A stretch of DNA of 64,000 bases from Streptomyces paludis (GTDB taxonomy: Bacteria; Actinomycetota; Actinomycetes; Streptomycetales; Streptomycetaceae), in NCBI RefSeq assembly GCF_003344965.1, contig NZ_CP031194.1, forward strand, positions 5,084,001 to 5,148,000. Direction: 5' to 3'. The translations under genes were made by a program, and so were the position numbers. Positions within the stretch are counted from its first letter, which is position 1. Each line of letters starts with the position of its first letter. The notes beneath the pieces are model-generated. The model saw nothing but the letters and a program-made list of their open reading frames with translations. It did not search any database and had not been told where the DNA came from. Below are positions 9,300-18,660 of the stretch, piece by piece.

Positions 9300-9522
9300 G
9301 TGCGTTCCCTCCGCGAGCATGAGTGAGAGCACATTGTCCCGGCTGGGCGGCGCGAGCGCGAGTACGGATCGCGGCGGGGTGGGGCGGGGTACGGCGCTGC
9401 CTCCTCGAAGCCGCGCGACGAGGCGCCCCCGGGCGTTTCCGGCGGTGGGTTACTCTTCCCGGACTTTGCCAAAAACTGGGCAAGTGCCAGGTCCGGGCCT
9501 GGTTGAGTTCCTTGGGGGGAAC

Positions 9523-10404
9523 ATGTTCGAGCTGTCCGTCATCCTTCTCATAGCAGCCGTCGCGCTGTACGTCGTAGGCCGGTTCAACTCCCAGGCCAAG
9601 TGGCGGATCGGGAGTGTGTTCGCACTGCTGGGGGCGGTACTGGCGGCCGTGGTGAGCTGTGTGCACGTGGTGAGCGCGTACCAGGTGGGGGTGCCGGTGG
9701 CCTTCGGGAAGGTGGGGAAGCCCTGGGGCTCGGGCATCCATCTGAAGTCGCCGTTCACCACGGTGACGACGTTCTCGACCCGCCCGGTCGACCTGAACCT
9801 CTCCGGCAAGGAGGTCGTCGAGGTGCGTTCCTCGCAGGGCGGGGTGATGTACGCGGAGCTGACCGTCAAGTGGGCGGTGAGGCCGGACAAGGCCGTGGAG
9901 CTGTACCGGCTCGCGGGGACGGAGCAGGCGATCCAGGAGCGGCTGGTGTTCCCCGACAGCCGGGAGATCGTCCGTAACGTCTTCGCCCAGCACACCAGCG
10001 AGGAGGGCTACACCTCCGCCCGCGAGAAGATCAACGCCGAGATCGGCGACCTGATCAAGCAGCGCCTCGCACCGCGCGGCATCGCCGTGACGGCCGTGAA
10101 CCTGCGCAACGTCAAGCCCTCCGAGCAGCTCCAGGACCAGATCGACAAGAAGATCCAGCAGCAGCAGGCCACCGAACGCGCCACCGAAGCCGCCCGCACG
10201 GCAACGGCCGAGGCCGAGCGCCGCCGGATCGAGGCCGAGGGAATCGCGAAGGCGAACAAGATCCTGGAGCAGTCCCTCAGCGACAAGGTCCTCATGAACC
10301 AGTGCATCGACGCGTTCCGCGAGGCCGCGAAGGAGAACCCGGTCTACACGGTCCCGTGCGGCTCGGGCAGCGGCACACCGGTAATCGTCGGCGGCAAGAA
10401 CTGA
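9523..10404 (+). CDS. SPFH/band-7 (prohibitin-like) membrane protein
   Basis: A 293-residue protein. The ATG at 9523 follows a GGGGGG stretch. Two hydrophobic segments lie at about residues 4-20 and 32-52, followed by the band-7 domain (VGVPVAFGKVGKPWGSGIHLKSPF through the VNLRNVKPSEQLQDQID stretch) and a charged coiled coil containing QQQQATERATEAARTATAEA and RRRIEAEGIAKA. Such proteins form oligomeric membrane rings that scaffold lipid microdomains or proteases. It is the last intact core gene before the genomic island, and a GC-rich repeated GGCGCC region follows it. Confidence 0.85.
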   Translation: MFELSVILLIAAVALYVVGRFNSQAKWRIGSVFALLGAVLAAVVSCVHVVSAYQVGVPVAFGKVGKPWGSGIHLKSPFTTVTTFSTRPVDLNLSGKEVVEVRSSQGGVMYAELTVKWAVRPDKAVELYRLAGTEQAIQERLVFPDSREIVRNVFAQHTSEEGYTSAREKINAEIGDLIKQRLAPRGIAVTAVNLRNVKPSEQLQDQIDKKIQQQQATERATEAARTATAEAERRRIEAEGIAKANKILEQSLSDKVLMNQCIDAFREAAKENPVYTVPCGSGSGTPVIVGGKN

Positions 10405-10529
10405 CCCGGGCCCGAACGCCCAACCGACCACGCGGCGCCTGACCGCCGCCTGAGCGGCGCCTGACCGAGCGGCGCCGCGCGGACACCGGCGAGCCGGGCC
10501 GCCCGGCCGGCTGGGGCAGGATGGGAGGT

Positions 10530-10694
10530 ATGGCGAACCGACTGGCCCATGAGACCTCTCCCTACCTGCTCCAGCACGCCGACAACCCCGTCGACTGGTG
10601 GCCCTGGTCGCCCGAGGCGTTCGCGGAGGCGCGGCGGCGGGATGTGCCCGTGCTGCTGAGTGTGGGGTATTCGAGCTGTCACTGGTGCCAGTGA
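10530..10694 (+). pseudogene. Displaced 5' end of a DUF255 thioredoxin-like gene (left island edge)
   Basis: Fifty-four codons that match the beginning of the intact DUF255 gene at 18661: [39 protein letters not shown]. It stops one codon after the second Cys of the CxxC motif, where reading runs into a TGA made by foreign sequence. Codon use is typical of the core chromosome, so this is probably the original 5' end of the gene, cut off when the island inserted. An in-frame ATG at 10521 would add three residues. Confidence 0.85.
10677..10690. other. Left copy of the island boundary direct repeat
   Basis: TGTCACTGGTGCCA, identical to 18805-18818, covers the CHWC codons of the DUF255 gene. It is the last sequence shared by the truncated and intact copies on the left, and is the best candidate for the crossover site. 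Confidence 0.6.
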
Positions 10695-10942
10695 ACTCGC
10701 GAACCCAGTAGTCCGCAGCTCTCCCGCTATCTCAGGCACAGGGGCCCTGCGCCCGCACTCAGGACGTGGTGGCCACCTGGAGGTGGACGCGCTGCGACCG
10801 GGGGACCGCCAGCTGATCGCTGAGCTTCCGTCGTCTGAGAGCATTGCTGTAGTTAGGTTGTGGCGCCGCTGGAGCGGAGTCCACTGAGGCCAGCGCGGCC
10901 TCGCCAGACATCCAGACATGGTGTTACCGAGCGGGGGCCTAA

Positions 10943-12205
10943 ATGCCGTTGGAACGGTTCTCGCTGGAGAACTACCGCTGCTTTAGAGAGCGGCAGGAGG
11001 TGGAGCTTGGAAAGATCACCGTGGTGCTGGGTCGGAACAATGCTGGTAAGAGTGCGGTTGTCCGAGCCCTCCCGCTTCTCTCGGCCGGGGTCCGAGGGGA
11101 TTCTCCGCACCCTCTCGACTCGGATCAGATCCAGGAATTCCCTCCAACGTTCACCGATCTGATCCATGGCTCTTCGCCTCACGGGCGAATCCGCATGGGG
11201 GCATCGTTCGGTATCGAGGGTGGCAGGGTCGTCGATGCCACCGCTGAGGTCCAGAATATCGCCAACCAGGGAATCCAGTTGGTTTCCTCGTTGGAGATCT
11301 CCTGTGACTCAGAGGTTACGAATCTCACTTGGATTCCCAGTCGCGATGCCTACTCTTCGGAGAAGCGCGCGTATCTTGTCGACGGACACGAGGCAAGCGT
11401 CGGGTTCCGTGGGCTGCTGCCCGATCCTGCAGACTGGCCAGACTCCGTCGGCGGTATGCACGGAGTCACCAGGAGGATTCGAGAGGAGCTTGACGAGATC
11501 CGGTACCTGGGGCCTTTCAGGAAGAGTCCGGAGCGCTCCTTCCGATCCTCCTGCAGAGCATCGGATAGCGTCGGCTTTTGGGGTGAGAGGGCGTTGGGCA
11601 TGCTCGCCACGGATGAGATGCACGGGCGTGGCCGGCTCGCCCGCGAGGTCAATGTCCTGCTGGCAGGAATCCTGCCCGGGTGGCGCCTCGAAGTCGCCGA
11701 TGTCGGCTCGGGAATTTACGTTCCCAAGCTGCGTTCCCGGCATGATGCTGAACTCGTCGTCCACCTCGATGATGTAGGCACCGGTGTGGCCCAGTTCCTC
11801 CCGATCGTGATCCAACGGGCTGCGGACCGGGTGGATCCGCCCGTGAAGTCCGTGATCGAAATCGTGGAGGAGCCCGAGCTTCACCTCCATCCGTCCGCGC
11901 ATGCCGCGATCGCCGATCTCTATGTTGACGCCGTTCGGGGGTCACGGGTGCGATTCCTAGTGGAAACGCACAGTGAGAACTTCCTCCTCAGGCTGCGTCG
12001 GCGGGTTGCGGAGCGGAAGCTAAGCCCGGAGGAAGTGAAAGTCTACTTTGTTGAACAAGCCGATGGATCCGCTTCCTTGCGAAAGATCAAACTAGACACT
12101 CTCGGCAACCTCGACTACTGGCCTAGGGGAATCTTCGCAGAGGACTTCGAAGAGGTCCGCGCCCTCGCAGACGCGCAGGCTAATCGGATCGCTGATGCGC
12201 GTTGA
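10943..12205 (+). CDS. AAA (ABC/SMC-type) ATPase with DUF3696-like C-terminus
   Basis: A 420-residue ATPase of the AAA_15/AAA_21 group used by OLD and PARIS-type defence systems. Walker A is GRNNAGKS (residues 30-37). An ABC-signature-like segment DDVGTGVAQFLPIV comes before Walker B IEIVEEPELHLHP (ending at 317), and a switch histidine follows in VETHSENFLLRL. The last 60 residues (VKVYFVEQADG, then the LDTLGNLDYWPRGIFAEDFEEV stretch) read like a DUF3696 tail. The middle (about 70-250) is the insert domain usual in these proteins. Its end overlaps the TOPRIM-like gene by 11 bp. Likely the sensor or regulator that controls its partners. First gene of a three-gene operon. Confidence 0.88.
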   Translation: MPLERFSLENYRCFRERQEVELGKITVVLGRNNAGKSAVVRALPLLSAGVRGDSPHPLDSDQIQEFPPTFTDLIHGSSPHGRIRMGASFGIEGGRVVDATAEVQNIANQGIQLVSSLEISCDSEVTNLTWIPSRDAYSSEKRAYLVDGHEASVGFRGLLPDPADWPDSVGGMHGVTRRIREELDEIRYLGPFRKSPERSFRSSCRASDSVGFWGERALGMLATDEMHGRGRLAREVNVLLAGILPGWRLEVADVGSGIYVPKLRSRHDAELVVHLDDVGTGVAQFLPIVIQRAADRVDPPVKSVIEIVEEPELHLHPSAHAAIADLYVDAVRGSRVRFLVETHSENFLLRLRRRVAERKLSPEEVKVYFVEQADGSASLRKIKLDTLGNLDYWPRGIFAEDFEEVRALADAQANRIADAR

Positions 12206-13220
12206 GATTCCGGTTGACCTGCTGAGGGGCCGCGAGGGTGACGAGAACGCGGAGCTCGTACTGAAGCTGATCACGTTCTTCAGGGAGGCACGGCATGAGT
12301 GGGTGATATCCCCGCGCGACGTGGGCATCCTTCAAGTGTTCCTACAGCGTCACGTCCCGACCTTGGCGCAGACCTACCTGCTGCTCGCACAGAAGGCGAG
12401 CATGGCGCAGGCTTGGGCACCGCATGGTGAAAGCAACGGTGTGGTCAGGGTGGCTGGCGAGACGCTGGCGAGCGACATTCGCGATTTGGAGCAGCCGGCC
12501 GTGTTGGTTGTGGAGAACGCGTTTTATGACTGGCAGATGATCGAAGCAATCGCGCGCCTGCTGGACTGCAAGGACGTCGTTGACGCCAAGGAAAGCAGCC
12601 GCCTCGGTGTGTACAACGGTGGCGGCAAGGACGGTGCGGCCTGGCACGCTGTCGACCAAGCCGCGAAGTTCTCTAGGACCAAGCGTGTGGTTCTTGTCAT
12701 CGACAGCGATAGTTTCTACCCAGCAGACCGGACCGGGAATCACGAGAAGGCTGATGCTGCAACCTGCGGAGGCGTGAGTTCGCATGTCCTCAGCTTCCGG
12801 GAGATGGAAAACTATATTCCCAACCGGGTCTTGGCTCGACAATCGAAAAGAACTACCGGAATGTCTTCGATGGCCAAGCGCCTGGAATCCCTAAAGGCGC
12901 TTTTGCCGGAACAGCGTGCTCACTTCGACATGAAGCATGGGTTCAAGGGTAAGCCGCATCGGAGTCCTGATCAAAAGAGACGGCACACCAGGCAGGCGGG
13001 GACGACGTTTTTCGTCCCATCGCGCCACGGCGATTTGTACGACGGAGTAGCAGAGCAGGATCTTATCGTCCTTCAGGAGGGATTTGGAACGGACCTGCCG
13101 AGCTTATTCTTGCAAGAGGTGATGCGCGGCGGGATATCGGAGCGAGATCTGGATGGCCTGGGACTTGACGCGAAGCAGGAATTGCGATCGATGTTTGAAA
13201 TGATTCGGAGTGTGATCTGA
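12195..13220 (+). CDS. TOPRIM-like (DUF4435/AriB-type) putative nuclease
   Basis: A 341-residue protein I place in the TOPRIM superfamily by motif spacing. An invariant Glu lies in AVLVVENAFYD (Glu107), a DxD in VVLVIDSDSF (170-172), and an acidic end motif in SFREMENYIPN (203-210). This is the same order as in DUF4435 and OLD-type nucleases (E...DxD...diEny). The N-terminal 95 residues and C-terminal 130 residues match nothing I know; the C-terminus has basic patches around 250-275. It overlaps the ATPase gene by 11 bp and ends 2 bp before the DUF262 gene. Probable effector nuclease held in check by the ATPase. The assignment is inference and needs a profile or structure comparison. Confidence 0.65.
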   Translation: MRVEIPVDLLRGREGDENAELVLKLITFFREARHEWVISPRDVGILQVFLQRHVPTLAQTYLLLAQKASMAQAWAPHGESNGVVRVAGETLASDIRDLEQPAVLVVENAFYDWQMIEAIARLLDCKDVVDAKESSRLGVYNGGGKDGAAWHAVDQAAKFSRTKRVVLVIDSDSFYPADRTGNHEKADAATCGGVSSHVLSFREMENYIPNRVLARQSKRTTGMSSMAKRLESLKALLPEQRAHFDMKHGFKGKPHRSPDQKRRHTRQAGTTFFVPSRHGDLYDGVAEQDLIVLQEGFGTDLPSLFLQEVMRGGISERDLDGLGLDAKQELRSMFEMIRSVI

Positions 13221-13222
13221 GC

Positions 13223-14896
13223 ATGGGAGGTGTCGAGGCGTTCAAGGATATCTCCGTGGTTCCGGAGGCCTACTTTCTGGAGCAATTGCTGGAGCGGATT
13301 GCGCGGGGAGAGTTGCGTGTGCCAAAATTCCAGCGCCCGTTCTTGTGGCGTCCCGAACAGATGCTGCAACTATTTGATAGTCTGGAGCGCGGTTACCCGA
13401 TAGGGAGCTTCCTCGTCTGGGAGACGGCTCTGCCGCTTGAAAGCCTTGATAGTATCGGCGGAATCAGCATTCCTTCGCCACCGGAGGGAGTGAAAGTCGC
13501 CTACGTGTTGGACGGGCACCAGCGGCTCTCGACGCTCTTTGGGTCCCTCTACCGATCGGTCGACGCCCCACGGTCCACCCGGCAGGAGGACTGGATGTGG
13601 TGGGTCTACCGGTCGCTTGCCCGATCGGATCACGAAGGGGTGCGCTACCTGCATTGGAAGAGTGGCGAGCCGGCTCCCACTGACTACCTACCTATGAGAG
13701 CCGTGCTGAGGACTCTGGACTTCCTCGAATGCGTGCGGAAGATGTCCGATGCTACTGGCTCTCGGGAGGAGGCCGACCGCCTTATCGCGGAGAGTGAGCG
13801 CATCGCCAGGCGCGTGAAGAACTACAGGGTCCCCGTGGTGCGCATGGAGGGTGGCGATCTACACCAGTCCATCGAGGTCTTCTCCAGACTCAACAGCGGT
13901 GGCCAGGAGATGAGGCCCGATCACATGGTCTCCGCCCTGACCTACAAAGTCACGGGACCGGAGACTCTCAGCGACAAGATGGAGGAAATCAAGGGGCGGG
14001 TCGCTGCCTCGGGCTTCGGCGAAATCCCAATCATGACGATCTTCCAGACCATCCTCGCGCTCTCTGGCGAGGAGGACGTGCAGTGGGGGTCTTCCTGGGA
14101 AACGATGGCCGGCAGGGTCCCAGGCCATCTTATGACCGCCGTGAAGGACACTGAGCGGAGCTTGCAAGAGGTGGTCGCGTTTCTGCAAGGCGAGGTCGGG
14201 GTTCCGATAGGCCGCCTAGTCCCCTACAACATCCAGATCATGTTGCTCGCTGTCTTCTTCCACTTCTCCGACGAGGTGGAAGCGGAGCAACGAGCCAGAC
14301 TCCGGAACTGGTTCTGGACCACGTCGCTGGCAGGTACCTTCGCCGGAGTTGCGGCCGCTCAGGTTCGGAGATTGATCCAGCAGATGAGGGACTTCGCGCA
14401 GGGAGAGAGCGGGCTCAGCTGTCCGAGTGAGCGGGCCCGTGCCTTCCCCGACCGCTTCGACCTGCGCAGTGCGCGGGTACGTGCCTACCTCCTCTGGGAT
14501 CTGCAGGAGTTCCCGGAACGGAAGAACTTCGATGGCAGCACCGTAAACGTGCTGGAGCAGCTAGCGACAGCACACGGAGAGACCTATCGACACATCATCA
14601 CCCAGAGTGGAGTTCCGGGGGCATCCAGCCCAGCCAACCGGATCGTCATGACAACGCCGCCAGGCATGTCAATCCGGCAGGCGCTCATTCGGCTTGCGGA
14701 AGAGGGGAGGGCCAATGTCCTGGATTCACACGGGGTCAGCCTAACGTCCATTGAGCACCTCAAGGCCCACAACCACACCGCATTCATCTTCGCGCGTCAA
14801 CACGATCTGGCCGCGCGGGAGAGACAGTTCATCGAGAGCCTGGGCATTGAGTCGGCAGATAGGGAGGTAGGAGAGGCCGACATCGACACCGAATGA
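13223..14896 (+). CDS. DUF262 (GmrSD N-terminal-like) protein
   Basis: A 557-residue protein starting two bases after the TOPRIM-like gene. The N-terminal 300 residues have the DUF262 signature: VPKFQRPFLWRPEQ (33-46), the ParB-like nuclease/NTPase motif YVLDGHQRLSTL (94-105), and VFSRLNSGGQEMRPDHM (from about 217). DUF262 proteins include the GTP-using part of the GmrSD type IV restriction enzyme and BrxU. The usual DUF1524 HNH nuclease half is absent: the C-terminal 250 residues show no HNH motif. The protein therefore probably depends on its neighbours for nuclease action. Third gene of the operon; no terminator is obvious after it. Confidence 0.85.
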   Translation: MGGVEAFKDISVVPEAYFLEQLLERIARGELRVPKFQRPFLWRPEQMLQLFDSLERGYPIGSFLVWETALPLESLDSIGGISIPSPPEGVKVAYVLDGHQRLSTLFGSLYRSVDAPRSTRQEDWMWWVYRSLARSDHEGVRYLHWKSGEPAPTDYLPMRAVLRTLDFLECVRKMSDATGSREEADRLIAESERIARRVKNYRVPVVRMEGGDLHQSIEVFSRLNSGGQEMRPDHMVSALTYKVTGPETLSDKMEEIKGRVAASGFGEIPIMTIFQTILALSGEEDVQWGSSWETMAGRVPGHLMTAVKDTERSLQEVVAFLQGEVGVPIGRLVPYNIQIMLLAVFFHFSDEVEAEQRARLRNWFWTTSLAGTFAGVAAAQVRRLIQQMRDFAQGESGLSCPSERARAFPDRFDLRSARVRAYLLWDLQEFPERKNFDGSTVNVLEQLATAHGETYRHIITQSGVPGASSPANRIVMTTPPGMSIRQALIRLAEEGRANVLDSHGVSLTSIEHLKAHNHTAFIFARQHDLAARERQFIESLGIESADREVGEADIDTE

Positions 14897-14940
14897 CGAG
14901 CAGCGAGTCTAGGTTTCGCCGTCGAGAGCGCCGGCTTATA

Positions 14941-14992
14941 AGAGGCTGACGCGTATGAACCGGCTGGCTGGTGTGACCTCGTCTTGCTTGCT
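14941..14992 (+). pseudogene. Third remnant of the DUF255 5' end inside the island
   Basis: AGAGGCTG, then ATG at 14955, MNRLAGVTSSCLLG, closely follows the leader and first 14 codons of the intact gene at 18661 ([22 protein letters not shown]). Similarity then ends and reading runs to a stop. It is nearer to the right-hand copy than to the left-hand copy. It marks the boundary between the ATPase/TOPRIM/DUF262 block and the kinase block, and so suggests two insertion events. The rest of 14897-15205 holds no gene I can support. Confidence 0.75.
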
Positions 14993-15205
14993 TGGCCAAG
15001 GAGAAGTGGGACACCATCGTTGTCATCTTTGAGCCAGGCGGTTCCTCCTGAGGGCTCCGACAGACGGCCGGAATGCGGCTTCAGCGCGTGTAGAGTTTGT
15101 CCGCACCTTGCTGCTGCGCATGGGATTTGCTGTTCACCCTTTCGCCAATTTCCTGTGCCTGTCCCCAGTCGCAACTGGGGTATCCAGGCCGTCGGCGTTG
15201 TGTCA

Positions 15206-16585
15206 TCAAAAGCGACTGCGGTCTATGGCCTCCTGGATTGCGTGATGAATAGCCCTGTGGATAGCGTCGTCTTGGAGGAGTCGACCGAAATGCCTGGCGG
15301 AGCTGGGGTGCGCTTGGAGTGCGTCTGCCGCTATTTGGGCTGCGTGTCCAGAGAGCTGCCGTAGCCACGGGGCGATCTGGTTCTGTGCCTTCCACTGGTC
15401 CCAGGCTCCGTCCCAGATCAGCATGCAGCGGACGGACTCGTCGAGAAGGTCCCATGCTTCGAGCGCTGCCGCCTCCGCCACGATCTGCTGAAGCCAGAGG
15501 GCGGTCAGGTTGGCTTCGCCGAATTGGACGCGTCTGCTCCCATCCCCGTTGACCAGATTGGCGAGTGAGCCAAGGACGGTTGCGGCACGAGCGGGGCTGC
15601 TTATGAAGTGCTGGACTGCGGGCGCAGGTGGGAGGGCGGTAAGGCTTTGGAGATGCAGGTCGTAATGTCGGGGGTGTTCGACGGCCAAACCGATCACGTC
15701 CCGGACGGCGTCTCCTTCTCCTTCCTTCGCGCCCACGAGCAGGGTACGGACACGGCTTTCCAACGAAACTGAAGGACCGGCAAGCTGACTGTTTATCAAA
15801 GCCAAGAGGCTCTGAACGGTCTGCGGACGATTCTGGGGCTCCTGCTCGGTAGTTTGTCGGACAACGGTGCGCCAGGCTCCCCATTCTGGACCTGGATACA
15901 GCGGGACGTTAGGTCGGGGTCGCTCGCCGGTCAATGCCCAGGCGACCAAGCGGCCGATGCTGTAGATGTCACTCGCCGGGGATGCGTTATGCGGTGAGGT
16001 TGAGAGTTCGGGCGCGGCGAAGCCCTCGGTGCCGATGGAGGAGCGGGTGCGGTCGGGCTTTGTGGTCTGGCCACGGGGGCGTCGCACGAGGCCCCAGTCG
16101 GCGAGCATCCAGCGACCGTCGAGTAGCAGCACGTTGTAGGGCGTGATGTCACGGTGAAGCCAGTCATGCTGGTGTGCCGTTGACAGCACGTCGATGAGGC
16201 TGTTGACCAGGCCAAGGATGCGCTGAGGGTTCCGCAACTCGTTCTGGCGTTCTGCAGCAGTGGCTTCGGCGATGGGCATGACGATCCAGTCCTCGTTGGC
16301 GTTGGCGTCGAGGATCGGCATGAAGTGGGCGTGGCCTTCGAGGACCTGCGATATCTCGATCTCGCGCTTCATCCGCGCAATCGGGTCATCCAATGACGAG
16401 GTGCGGCGCTTGTACACGACGCGAGTCCGTGTTGTCTTGTGGGTGGCCAGGAAGATGTCCGCCTGGCCACCGTGCTTCCAGCGGGCAGGGTCGAGTGCAT
16501 AGTCCCTGCGTTCGCCGCGGCCGCGGCCACGGACGATCTCGTAGCCGGTGGTATCGGAACTCGATGAGAAGCTGTCAACGTTCGA
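15206..16585 (-). CDS. Protein kinase domain downstream of the TAA
   Basis: The kinase half of the split gene, taken from the codon after the TAA. Hanks-type motifs are in order: glycine loop GGQADIFLAT, ATP lysine VVYKR, alpha-C region REIEISQVLEGH, catalytic loop LHRDITPYNVLL (Asp and Asn both kept), DWG in place of DFG (LADWGLV), activation segment SSIGTEGFAAPEL, and DIYSIGRLVAWALTG. The remaining 190 residues are helical and unassigned. All catalytic residues are intact. No start codon exists upstream of the glycine loop in this frame, so independent translation would give a truncated kinase beginning at GTG 16417. Kinases with AbiJ domains are expected in phage-defence loci. Confidence 0.7.
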   Translation of the reverse strand, partial: SNVDSFSSSSDTTGYEIVRGRGRGERRDYALDPARWKHGGQADIFLATHKTTRTRVVYKRRTSSLDDPIARMKREIEISQVLEGHAHFMPILDANANEDWIVMPIAEATAAERQNELRNPQRILGLVNSLIDVLSTAHQHDWLHRDITPYNVLLLDGRWMLADWGLVRRPRGQTTKPDRTRSSIGTEGFAAPELSTSPHNASPASDIYSIGRLVAWALTGERPRPNVPLYPGPEWGAWRTVVRQTTEQEPQNRPQTVQSLLALINSQLAGPSVSLESRVRTLLVGAKEGEGDAVRDVIGLAVEHPRHYDLHLQSLTALPPAPAVQHFISSPARAATVLGSLANLVNGDGSRRVQFGEANLTALWLQQIVAEAAALEAWDLLDESVRCMLIWDGAWDQWKAQNQIAPWLRQLSGHAAQIAADALQAHPSSARHFGRLLQDDAIHRAIHHAIQEAIDRSRF

Positions 16586-17431
16586 TTACCTGTCCCGTGC
16601 GGTGAGCGACGCTGGGGACGCGACGGGGATGCGGCGGCCGGCGTAGATGGGGAATCCGCTGATGCGGTCGACCGCAGCGATGGAGTAGCTGTCGCGCCCC
16701 AGGGCCTCGTTAAAGAACTCCAACAGGTGTTCCACCTCCTTCGTGTCCGGACGCACGACAGGGTGGACCATCTCGGCAAGGAAGCGCAGGAAGGTATCGT
16801 CGCTGCCGCGCAGCAGGTCGAACCGAATATCGGTGAAGATCCAGTCCTCCTGCCAGTCATCGTTATTGAACCGGTGCTGGTAAATGTCCCCCTCGGCCGT
16901 CTCGAACCGACTATCAGTGCTCGGTAGTTTGCCCAGGTCATAGATGCGCTCAAGGAATTCGGCGTCAGTCAGAGCGCCGTACCAGCTCAAGCCGCTCAGC
17001 TTCAGCATGTCGATGATTCGACGCCGCGTGACCTCTGTGATCCGGTTCTCAGCGACACCGGTCGCTCGAGTAGCGGCGGGGACGAGAGCTTGACGCCAAT
17101 CAGCCGCTGGTTCGGGCAGCACTGGCCGGACCACGATCCGGTCGACAGCGCTACGACTGTTTTGCTTGCACACCTCGGTCAGCGTGGGCTGGACATGAGT
17201 CAGCACATCAGTTGTGAACGCTGGTCGATCGATCTCCTCGACGTAGAACACGGCTGCCCAGTAGTAGTCATGCCAGTTGCTCTCAGTCACGAAACCGTCG
17301 TCGGTCTGCTCGAAGTCCACGCGCTGCACAGCGCGCAGCAGATCGAGAGTGCCCAGATCGCCGCTGGCAGCGAACAGCGAAGCGGTTTGAGCCAAGATCC
17401 GTTCGCCCTCGCTGGCGTCGTCCAAGATCAT
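16586..17431 (-). CDS. AbiJ-NTD3 domain protein (N-terminal part of the split gene)
   Basis: 281 residues ending at the TAA. Residues from about 130 to 272 match what I recall as AbiJ N-terminal domain 3: ITEVTRRRIIDMLKLSGLSWYG, then YDLGKLPSTDSRF, GDIYQHRFNNDDWQEDW, FTDIRFDLL, FLRFLAEMVHPVVRPD, and ISGFPIYAGRR. AbiJ N-terminal domains occur at the front of abortive-infection and related defence proteins, where they are thought to sense a trigger and pass it to a C-terminal effector, here the kinase. The first 130 residues are helical and unassigned. The AGGA before the ATG at 17431 abuts it, so the start is uncertain. Confidence 0.7.
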   Translation of the reverse strand: MILDDASEGERILAQTASLFAASGDLGTLDLLRAVQRVDFEQTDDGFVTESNWHDYYWAAVFYVEEIDRPAFTTDVLTHVQPTLTEVCKQNSRSAVDRIVVRPVLPEPAADWRQALVPAATRATGVAENRITEVTRRRIIDMLKLSGLSWYGALTDAEFLERIYDLGKLPSTDSRFETAEGDIYQHRFNNDDWQEDWIFTDIRFDLLRGSDDTFLRFLAEMVHPVVRPDTKEVEHLLEFFNEALGRDSYSIAAVDRISGFPIYAGRRIPVASPASLTARDR

Positions 17432-17525
17432 TCCTAGCGCTCATCGTCGTCGAAGACGGAGACGATTCGATATTTTCGCCATTGTGCCAACCAAGTTTTC
17501 TCCAGGCCTCGACTTTCAGGAAACC

Positions 17526-17867
17526 TCAGAGGATGCCCCCGACCACCGCGCTGGCGGACAGTCGCAGCCAGCGTTCGGCGCCTTCGTCTCGGTGGCGGGA
17601 CTCGACATGGTGATCACCAGCTATGTGAGTCCTGACTGACCGTGCCAGCCGGGCGGTTGCTGCTCCGTTGTCTCGCGCGGCCAGGATCGCCGCACGAGCT
17701 TCTACGCTCGACTCGGCGGGCATCGCTCTTGTCTCCCGGTGCCCTTCTGTCTCGCCGCTGACGGCGACGTCCGCGTACGCGGACGGCTGTAGGCCCAAGC
17801 CCGGGTCGGTCTTGTAGGTGCCGCCCCGATTGGTCCGAGAAGAAGCGATGCGGACGCTGACGGTCAA
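17526..17867 (-). CDS. Small hypothetical protein
   Basis: 113 codons from a TTG, 30 bp downstream of the Uma2 gene on the same strand. The C-terminal half looks protein-like and helical (ARAAILAARDNGAATARLARS, then HVESRHRDEGAERWLRLS), while the first 48 residues are low in structure. A start at the internal ATG (65 residues) is also possible. I do not recognise it. It may be the tail of a larger, decayed gene. Confidence 0.35.
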   Translation of the reverse strand: MTVSVRIASSRTNRGGTYKTDPGLGLQPSAYADVAVSGETEGHRETRAMPAESSVEARAAILAARDNGAATARLARSVRTHIAGDHHVESRHRDEGAERWLRLSASAVVGGIL

Positions 17868-17897
17868 GCGTCGACAGCCGGGCGGCTTCTCGGGTCC

Positions 17898-18464
17898 TTA
17901 CAGGACCCCAAGATCGACCGTGACAGGGAATGGTGCGGTGGCCTTCACCGTGCCGGTGAACATCTCGCCGTCCCGGTAGGCCTTGGTGGCGGGGTCGAGG
18001 ACGTAGGTGTACACGATTGGGACACCGGTGGCGGCCTGTTCAATGCGCCAGTAGAAGGGGATGCCAGCCTTGGCGTACTGGTCCACCTTTACGATCCGGT
18101 CTGTGGTCTCCGAGCCGGGCGACACCACCTCGACGACCAGGAGCACGTGCTCGGGTCGGGTGGGCGTGAGGTCGATGGTTTCTGCCCGGTAGACGACGAC
18201 GTCAGGGCGGCGATTGGTGAGGGGAACGTCCTGTAGACGGACGTCGAAGTCCGTGTCCGCGTTCCAGTCCGGGCCCGCGGCGGCGTCCAGGGCGTTGGCC
18301 AGGATGCGGGCCAGCCGGTTGTGGCGCTTGGAGGCGCTCGGGCTCACGACGACCATCCCGTCCACGATCTCGATGCCGGCGCACTGCTCCTCGGACCAGG
18401 AGTCGTACTGCTCCGCGCTGATCTGCGTGTGCATCCACGCGGGCGCCACCATCTCGGCGGTCAT
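17898..18464 (-). CDS. Uma2-family (DUF820) nuclease-fold protein
   Basis: A 188-residue PD-(D/E)xK-fold protein. The start at 18464 has a strong GAAGGAGG ribosome site. Core elements are IEIVDGMVVVSPSAS near residues 31-45, then RLQDVPLTNRRPDVVVY (the PD aspartate) and LLVVEVVSPGSETTDRIVKVDQYAKAGIPFYW (E-x-V core followed by a lysine and the usual Y-A-x-x-GIPxYW). The catalytic residues seem present. Uma2 proteins are common in many copies in Streptomyces and cyanobacteria, often in mobile or variable regions; their targets are unknown. Last gene of the island before the rebuilt DUF255 gene. Confidence 0.88.
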   Translation of the reverse strand: MTAEMVAPAWMHTQISAEQYDSWSEEQCAGIEIVDGMVVVSPSASKRHNRLARILANALDAAAGPDWNADTDFDVRLQDVPLTNRRPDVVVYRAETIDLTPTRPEHVLLVVEVVSPGSETTDRIVKVDQYAKAGIPFYWRIEQAATGVPIVYTYVLDPATKAYRDGEMFTGTVKATAPFPVTVDLGVL

Positions 18465-18660
18465 GGTGTACCTCCTTCGAGAGGCCTCGGCAGGTCCGGC
18501 GCTGCTGCGCCAAGCCTACTGTTCCGAGGTGCCGGGCTGCCCGACTCGGAAAGGAAGGAGCCGCCCACCACGTCATGGCGCATAAGTGCAATTCGGCTAA
18601 GTGAGGCGGGCTCGTCAGCGTTTCACCGGTCGCGGGAGGCGCTGTGAGAGGCTGGGCCGT

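Follow-up and report, generated by a model that had tools for sequence, protein, structure and literature searches.

A three-gene operon in the chromosome of Streptomyces paludis, referred to here as PDC-M55 after the catalogue entry that it matches, is considered with some reserve to be a defence system, most likely directed against phages or mobile elements. In the reading favoured here, a nuclease-dead type IV restriction enzyme (gene C) would sense the invader and license an ATPase-TOPRIM effector (genes A and B) resembling those of OLD and PARIS. The operon lies in a stretch of 64,000 nucleotides, called the window throughout, which covers positions 5,084,001-5,148,000 of the 8.45-Mb, single-contig genome. 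The genes are arranged head to tail as follows (lengths in amino acids, aa):

10943..12205, + strand: gene A (PDC-M55A), 420 aa, OLD/Menshen-type ABC ATPase (AAA_15 plus DUF3696)
12195..13220, + strand: gene B (PDC-M55B), 341 aa, predicted TOPRIM nuclease of OLD/AriB type
13223..14896, + strand: gene C (PDC-M55C), 557 aa, DUF262 (GmrSD_N) plus a probable degenerate His-Me/HNH (DUF1524-like) half

Gene calling bears out the coordinates, the strand, the 11-bp overlap between A and B and the 2-bp gap between B and C that had been read from the letters of the window alone in an earlier inspection (the original prediction). All three genes end in TGA, B and C start with ATG, and the spacing between B and the start of C is identical in the related loci L003-L007. 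Ratios of nonsynonymous to synonymous substitution (dN/dS, Nei-Gojobori method) for A, B and C were 0.158, 0.155 and 0.181 against L031, 0.185, 0.172 and 0.199 against L003, 0.174, 0.140 and 0.200 against L004, and 0.111, 0.117 and 0.115 against L008, the last being near saturation at synonymous sites. A, B and C are real, intact genes, and values of 0.11-0.20 against four relatives place them under purifying selection.

The order A-B-C was found in all 22 loci counted outside the window (L003-L011, L029-L032, L063-L067, L097-L099 and L100); L068, L073 and L076 were left out of this count. Six of these loci were found through C (L063-L067 and L100) and most through B, so the figure means that B does not occur without A and C in this set and gives no frequency for C or A without B. 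For the nine loci retrieved by B in named genomes, A was upstream and C downstream in every case. Within the family Streptomycetaceae, the B profile matched 6 of 394 genomes; after a weak match (G503) was set aside, S. paludis and four other genomes remained, each of the four with A and C as well. In the class Actinomycetes, 28 of 394 genomes matched the C profile at 1e-30, and seven, S. paludis included, did so at 1e-130 or better. Five of the other six hold A-B-C (L063-L067), and in the sixth a fragment of C stands alone, close to the end of its contig (L068). Eight further loci of this survey were read, the 19 weaker C matches being left aside. Six of the eight contain distant DUF262 genes (L069-L072, L074, L075) and show no A or B over the 15 kb covered; L073 proved identical to the L009 locus, and L076 is eroded.

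The trio extends to plasmid records, where ATPase, B and DUF262 genes follow one another in Paracoccus yeei pYEE5 (L097), Leclercia adecarboxylata pYUSHP29-2 (L098) and Nonomuraea gerenzanensis (L099), and to a metagenomic IMG/VR contig filed as viral (L100:431-7632), which encodes divergent A, B and C proteins of 377, 334 and 556 aa. Its range thus takes in Actinomycetota, Alphaproteobacteria and Gammaproteobacteria. The original prediction had proposed a survey for conserved three-gene order and held that rare co-occurrence would speak against a system; the order is kept far outside the genus. Identities between loci rise and fall together, with pairwise correlations of 0.979 for A-B, 0.978 for A-C and 0.952 for B-C among 19 intact loci (the window included; L006, L009, L032 and L100 excluded), which shows the three genes moving and diverging together. 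As separate observations, the trio of L100 directly follows a gene that resembles HsdR by eye, and the trio is present on a second Leclercia plasmid (NZ_MH909329.1, hit H5), where the B match is in two pieces and has an IS1-like element inside it.

In PADLOC-DB 2.0.0 the three adjacent genes match PDC-M55A (8.1e-164), PDC-M55B (3.1e-96) and PDC-M55C (1.6e-236) over nearly the full profiles, so the trio is an already catalogued candidate; the same profiles are also the best matches for the Paracoccus and Leclercia plasmid trios. We take the name to stand for phage defence candidate, multi-gene 55. Searches with A, B and C against PHROGs gave, below E 0.1, only families of unknown function. In the open-licence literature, no paper was found that names PDC-M55 or describes the trio, and both the degenerate restriction enzyme and the constancy of the trio across phyla are without description as far as the searches reach. 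PDC entries are presented as unpublished candidates in a paper that uses PADLOC (PMC11811056, as far as its accessible text goes), and the name therefore explains nothing. The claim that the system is undescribed thus holds for that literature and fails for the catalogue, where it figures as a candidate entry and not as a tested system.

Gene A is the member with the clearest relatives. Pfam assigns it AAA_15 (PF13175, E 1.1e-21) and DUF3696 (PF12476, E 1.1e-6), and NCBIfam yielded for the three proteins only matches below the cut-off, every one of them to A. Its nucleotide-binding motifs, all located in the translation, are listed here.

11030..11053, + strand: Walker A GRNNAGKS, residues A30-37
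11855..11893, + strand: Walker B/D-loop IEIVEEPELHLHP, residues A305-317
11963-11977, + strand: H-loop ETHSE, residues A341-345

After PDC-M55A, the PADLOC-DB profiles closest to A are NsnB of Menshen (4.1e-43, profile positions 2-342 of 345), HEC-03B (6.4e-42) and AriA of PARIS (2.7e-23). An hhalign comparison with NsnB from two Menshen-type loci (probability 99.5, E 9.1e-23) shows homology over the whole length. The original prediction could name no described system with these parts; Menshen (NsnABC) does combine a DUF262 protein (NsnA), a DUF3696-type ATPase (NsnB) and a third protein (NsnC), and A is nearer to NsnB than to AriA. The trio might accordingly be regarded as a Menshen subtype that has acquired a TOPRIM protein in place of NsnC and a different gene order. 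The kinship of A with NsnB and the DUF262 domain common to C and NsnA (PADLOC 1.5e-8) would fit this, as would the requirement of DUF262 genes for Menshen defence reported in the accessible part of PMC10952713. However, B is unrelated in sequence to NsnC (hhalign probability 0.08, for two NsnC sequences only), and Menshen membership was rejected on this ground. The NsnC profile has no match in the S. paludis genome, as against 16 of 396 phylum genomes matched, two of them at nearly full length. C and NsnA share only the N-terminal DUF262 part (hhalign probability 67.9 over 80 columns), C being a 557-aa protein with a BrxU-like second half and the NsnA proteins measuring 414 and 410 aa. The order NsnA-NsnB-NsnC (L027, L028) also differs from ATPase-TOPRIM-DUF262. 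A Menshen subtype is therefore thought unlikely. In the Menshen-type locus of the same genus (L027:5398-8733), the next gene encodes a 2236-aa protein that looks helicase-like by eye and is possibly part of another defence system.

Gene B, by comparison of sequence, is nearly featureless: Pfam gave no match even at E 10, and no PARIS profile of PADLOC-DB matched it. (The sequence family of AriB is that of Pfam DUF4435 or a PARIS profile.) Its AlphaFold2 model, with a predicted local distance difference test score of 89.9, has the fold of a TOPRIM nuclease behind a mostly helical N-terminal part (residues 1-97). The top structural matches are OLD nucleases and the next is AriB of PARIS, so that the TOPRIM call of the original prediction, made from motif order, is upheld by a fold predicted with good confidence. 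The positions below are compared with the active-site residues of BpOLD as given in the accessible text of PMC7049728.

12486..13217, + strand: TOPRIM domain of B, residues about 98-341, from the predicted structure
12513..12515, + strand: E107, within VVEN (B105-108), counterpart of BpOLD E400; model residue 98 pairs with BpOLD 391
12702..12710, + strand: D170-S-D172 (DSD), counterpart of BpOLD D455/D457; D170 and D172 invariant in alignments A1, A2 and A4
12801..12815, + strand: EMENY (B203-207; E203, E205, N206, Y207), likely metal-B ligands, compare BpOLD T506-x-E508
12933..12935, + strand: K247 in DMKHGF, invariant in alignment A4, candidate counterpart of BpOLD K562

E107 is likewise invariant across alignments A1, A2 and A4. 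In the cross-phylum alignment E205, N206 and Y207 are invariant and E203 is kept in at least 90% of sequences. The OLD-like catalytic residues of B are thus kept across two phyla, and B shows the OLD feature of a predicted TOPRIM fold with metal-binding residues and a Lys/Arg. B would cut nucleic acid, with tRNA and DNA both possible as substrates; the nearest folds are DNases, and AriB is close behind. A side observation on the A-B pair is an annotated 401-aa protein of Acrocarpospora corrugata (P0051), in which an A-type DUF3696 tail reads in frame into B; this hints at a possible A-B fusion or at a cut gene model.

Gene C carries GmrSD_N (DUF262; PF03235, E 1.1e-22) and has no Pfam DUF1524 match, nor do its 54 relatives among the matches listed. 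The original prediction had concluded that the HNH half was absent. This part was probably mistaken: the model of C aligns end to end with BrxU (model residues 13-538 with BrxU 1-579), which suggests that the half is present in degenerate form, and the HNH columns can be followed in an alignment of 54 C proteins.

13331..13894, + strand: DUF262 nucleotide-site motifs Q37R38, D97GHQR101 and F220xxxN224, located in C and in the 54-protein alignment
14585..14641, + strand: degenerate HNH site of C, YRHII(T) and SSPANR, compare HHxxP ... N ... N in intact relatives

The nucleotide site is conserved almost without exception. QR, DGxQR and F220 are kept in 54/54 proteins and N224 in 53/54, and the first Q of DGQQR is replaced by H in 52 of the 54 (motif names QR, DGQQR and FxxxN as used in the accessible text of PMC12137116). 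The HNH site has fared differently: position 456, where the HH/DH pair begins, carries R or Q in 54/54, and residue 481, the last N, is never N (G in 39, R in 14 and H in 1). His 457 corresponds to the His in GmrD's DHIYP motif. The two flanking positions, 456 and 481, serve as metal ligands in other HNH enzymes, and the loss of both leads us to read the site as dead. C is accordingly modelled as a DUF262 protein of BrxU layout with a degraded HNH half, probably unable to cut. All the motifs singled out by the original prediction (GRNNAGKS, VVEN, DSD, EMENY and DGHQR) were located, and the Pfam and PADLOC profile matches put them beyond chance. Another GmrSD_N gene of this genome, at G000:C1:6875356-6876015 on the - strand (L001, 3.1e-32), lies in an 896-aa frame.

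These elements suggest the following mechanism. A and B would correspond to an OLD nuclease divided over two proteins, as AriA and AriB do in PARIS, with A holding B inactive and switching it by means of ATP. C would be an enzyme of the GmrSD/BrxU type whose HNH has decayed and whose DUF262 nucleotide site has been kept. It would recognise phage or other foreign DNA, perhaps through modified bases, or else a phage protein, and trigger A-B rather than cut DNA itself. B would then cut nucleic acid, either host tRNA as AriB does or DNA as OLD does, and so stop the infection. We infer that the three proteins form a complex, with the signal passing from C as sensor to A-B, and that the outcome is protection from phage. 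A related scheme would dispense with abortive tRNA cleavage: on meeting modified or foreign DNA, C recruits A-B as the DNA cutter that replaces its lost HNH, making a type IV system with an outsourced nuclease. The DNase folds nearest to B accord with this, but OLD and AriB differ so little in Z score that the comparison does not tell DNase from RNase, AriB being an RNase with the same fold in the account of PMC12409363; such direct restriction is possible, though rather doubtful.

The favoured arrangement overlaps with several known systems and coincides with none but PDC-M55 itself, from which the trio shows no difference, all three proteins being best matches. With PARIS it shares an AriA-type ATPase (AriA not being the top match of A) beside a TOPRIM-fold protein. 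According to the part of PMC12409363 available, PARIS comprises an OLD-type ATPase and AriB, a TOPRIM tRNase kept inactive by AriA and freed by a phage trigger. PARIS has two genes, whereas C is a constant third gene here, and PARIS membership was rejected on that account; in addition, A is nearer to NsnB and HEC-03B than to AriA, and B lacks a PARIS profile match. It could still be proposed, given the adjacency of A and B and the AriB-like fold of B, that these two make up a PARIS-like toxin module by themselves and that C is a passenger or does no more than regulate expression. The presence of C in 22/22 loci, its co-divergence with A and B (r 0.978 and 0.952) and its similar selection (dN/dS 0.115-0.200) make this improbable. 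OLD nucleases, Gabija GajA and retron Eco8 have the same two domains and similar predicted metal-binding positions, but in one chain rather than in two overlapping genes joined by a third; OLD membership was rejected since the ATPase and TOPRIM parts are on separate genes.

Among proteins with DUF262 and DUF1524 (GmrSD, BrxU, SspE, DndI and GrwA), C appears to have both halves and has the QR, DGxQR and FxxxN motifs, but it has lost two HNH catalytic positions in 54/54 sequences and has constant ATPase and TOPRIM partners; the loss of nuclease residues led to the rejection of GmrSD membership. GrwAB of Vibrio offers a partial precedent, in that GrwB, a DUF262 protein without a recognised nuclease domain, is essential to a separate nuclease partner (PMC12137116, accessible text). 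GrwA, however, is itself a DUF262-HNH nuclease, and GrwAB contains neither ATPase nor TOPRIM protein. The portion of PMC12839542 at hand describes the pairing of OLD-ABC ATPases with alternative nucleases as frequent in BREX-like loci. The original idea of a PARIS-like sensor-nuclease merged with a type IV-like component survives in part, in the fold matches to OLD and AriB and in the kept gene order, with the corrections that Menshen is the nearer precedent by A and that the HNH half appears to be present.

Several findings weigh against the sensor-effector reading. Broken genes occur in 3 of the 22 loci: L006 has a disrupted C, L009 a truncated C and L032 only pieces of all three genes, so loss of the trio is frequent. 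With Foldseek alone, the best match of B reached E 0.023, short of the cut-off of E <= 0.001. The root-mean-square deviation between C and BrxU is large (16.6-17.8 A); the domains match and their arrangement differs. H457 is kept in 46/54 C proteins and the middle Asn, N472, in 54/54, so that C may retain residual HNH activity. The match of the Leclercia C protein to the M55C profile stops at position 365 of 554. Two other PADLOC candidates, PDC-M63AB and PDC-S04, were without effect when tested, according to the part of PMC12409345 seen.

The chromosomal setting also has to be weighed. A yyaL-like gene like that of the window follows the trio in 9/10 loci of the family (L003-L008, L029-L032), and this fixed place is compatible with a resident, non-defence function. 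The exception is L029 (G711, same genus), a divergent trio situated elsewhere (A 45%, B 36% and C 46% identical), which indicates either repeated entry of the trio family into the genus or a change of place. Left-side genes (mca-like, ilvA-like or NB-ARC-like) are found upstream in 7/9 of the yyaL-site loci and were not seen in L005 and L031. The yyaL-like gene itself occurs in 61/61 Streptomyces genomes. Twenty long-contig genomes of the genus (L077-L096), taken without selection for the trio, were read at this gene, and none of them had A, B or C in the part covered. The interval from NB-ARC/TPR to yyaL (window 9333-18660), taken from match end to match end, was < 1.2 kb in 9/20, held 2.3-11.6 kb of varied cargo in 8/20 and was unresolved in three (L077, L083 and L087). 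This variability indicates that the trio mostly occupies an insertion hotspot in Streptomyces. Among six cargo proteins scanned for defence families, two had strong matches, one a weak match (3.4e-4) and three none; the cargo includes an AbiEii-like gene (2.8e-83, L089:15273-16130) and a PN-superfamily effector-like gene (2.5e-22, L095:2061-5209), the latter followed by a 662-aa partner without a PADLOC match.

A resident chromosomal role, for instance in DNA repair or stress, would be in keeping with the place before yyaL, with purifying selection on all three genes, and with the non-defence roles that OLD family ATPases can hold, as with Cran1 in the accessible text of PMC12796447. The rarity of the trio (S. 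paludis and 4 of 393 other family genomes), a site that is nearly empty or filled with other cargo in most genomes surveyed, and its occurrence on plasmids all speak against such a role, which we think has little chance of being correct. For the neighbourhood, the original prediction had spoken of an island with defence-type genes, and a hotspot with some defence-type cargo is the better description. Six window neighbours were scanned: three downstream are defence-like (PD-T4-6/Stk2-like kinase, 4.8e-22; PDC-M01A-like, 1.5e-14; Uma2/PDC-S03-like, 6.6e-23), one is NB-ARC/TPR-like with weak matches, and two had no match. Left of the trio, the threonine-deaminase-like and mca-like genes, named by eye from translations, have an ordinary chromosomal look. 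The kinase gene adjoins the PDC-M01A-like gene (window 15206-17431, - strand), and the two may form a further defence module next to the trio. The Uma2-like gene (17898-18464, - strand) lies before yyaL; it is 82-98% identical where matched near the site and often more conserved than the genes around it.

The trio brings together two subjects that are usually kept apart, modification-dependent restriction (GmrSD, BrxU) and the systems that combine an ATPase with a nuclease (OLD, Gabija, PARIS, Menshen), its constant third protein being an apparently nuclease-dead restriction enzyme. Tentatively, PDC-M55 may represent a distinct mechanistic class, in which a former type IV nuclease, gated by nucleotide, would detect modified or foreign DNA and be coupled to an ATPase-TOPRIM effector of OLD/PARIS-like kind, with a PARIS-type, possibly tRNA-cutting and abortive, response. 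For a database entry so far only numbered, a mechanistic hypothesis and named residues are now at hand. Since C probably cannot cut, the trio offers a direct and cheap test of DUF262 as a sensor, and it also lets base modification be examined as the trigger of an abortive TOPRIM effector. If true, the proposal would link modification-dependent restriction to abortive infection across Actinomycetota, Alphaproteobacteria and Gammaproteobacteria.

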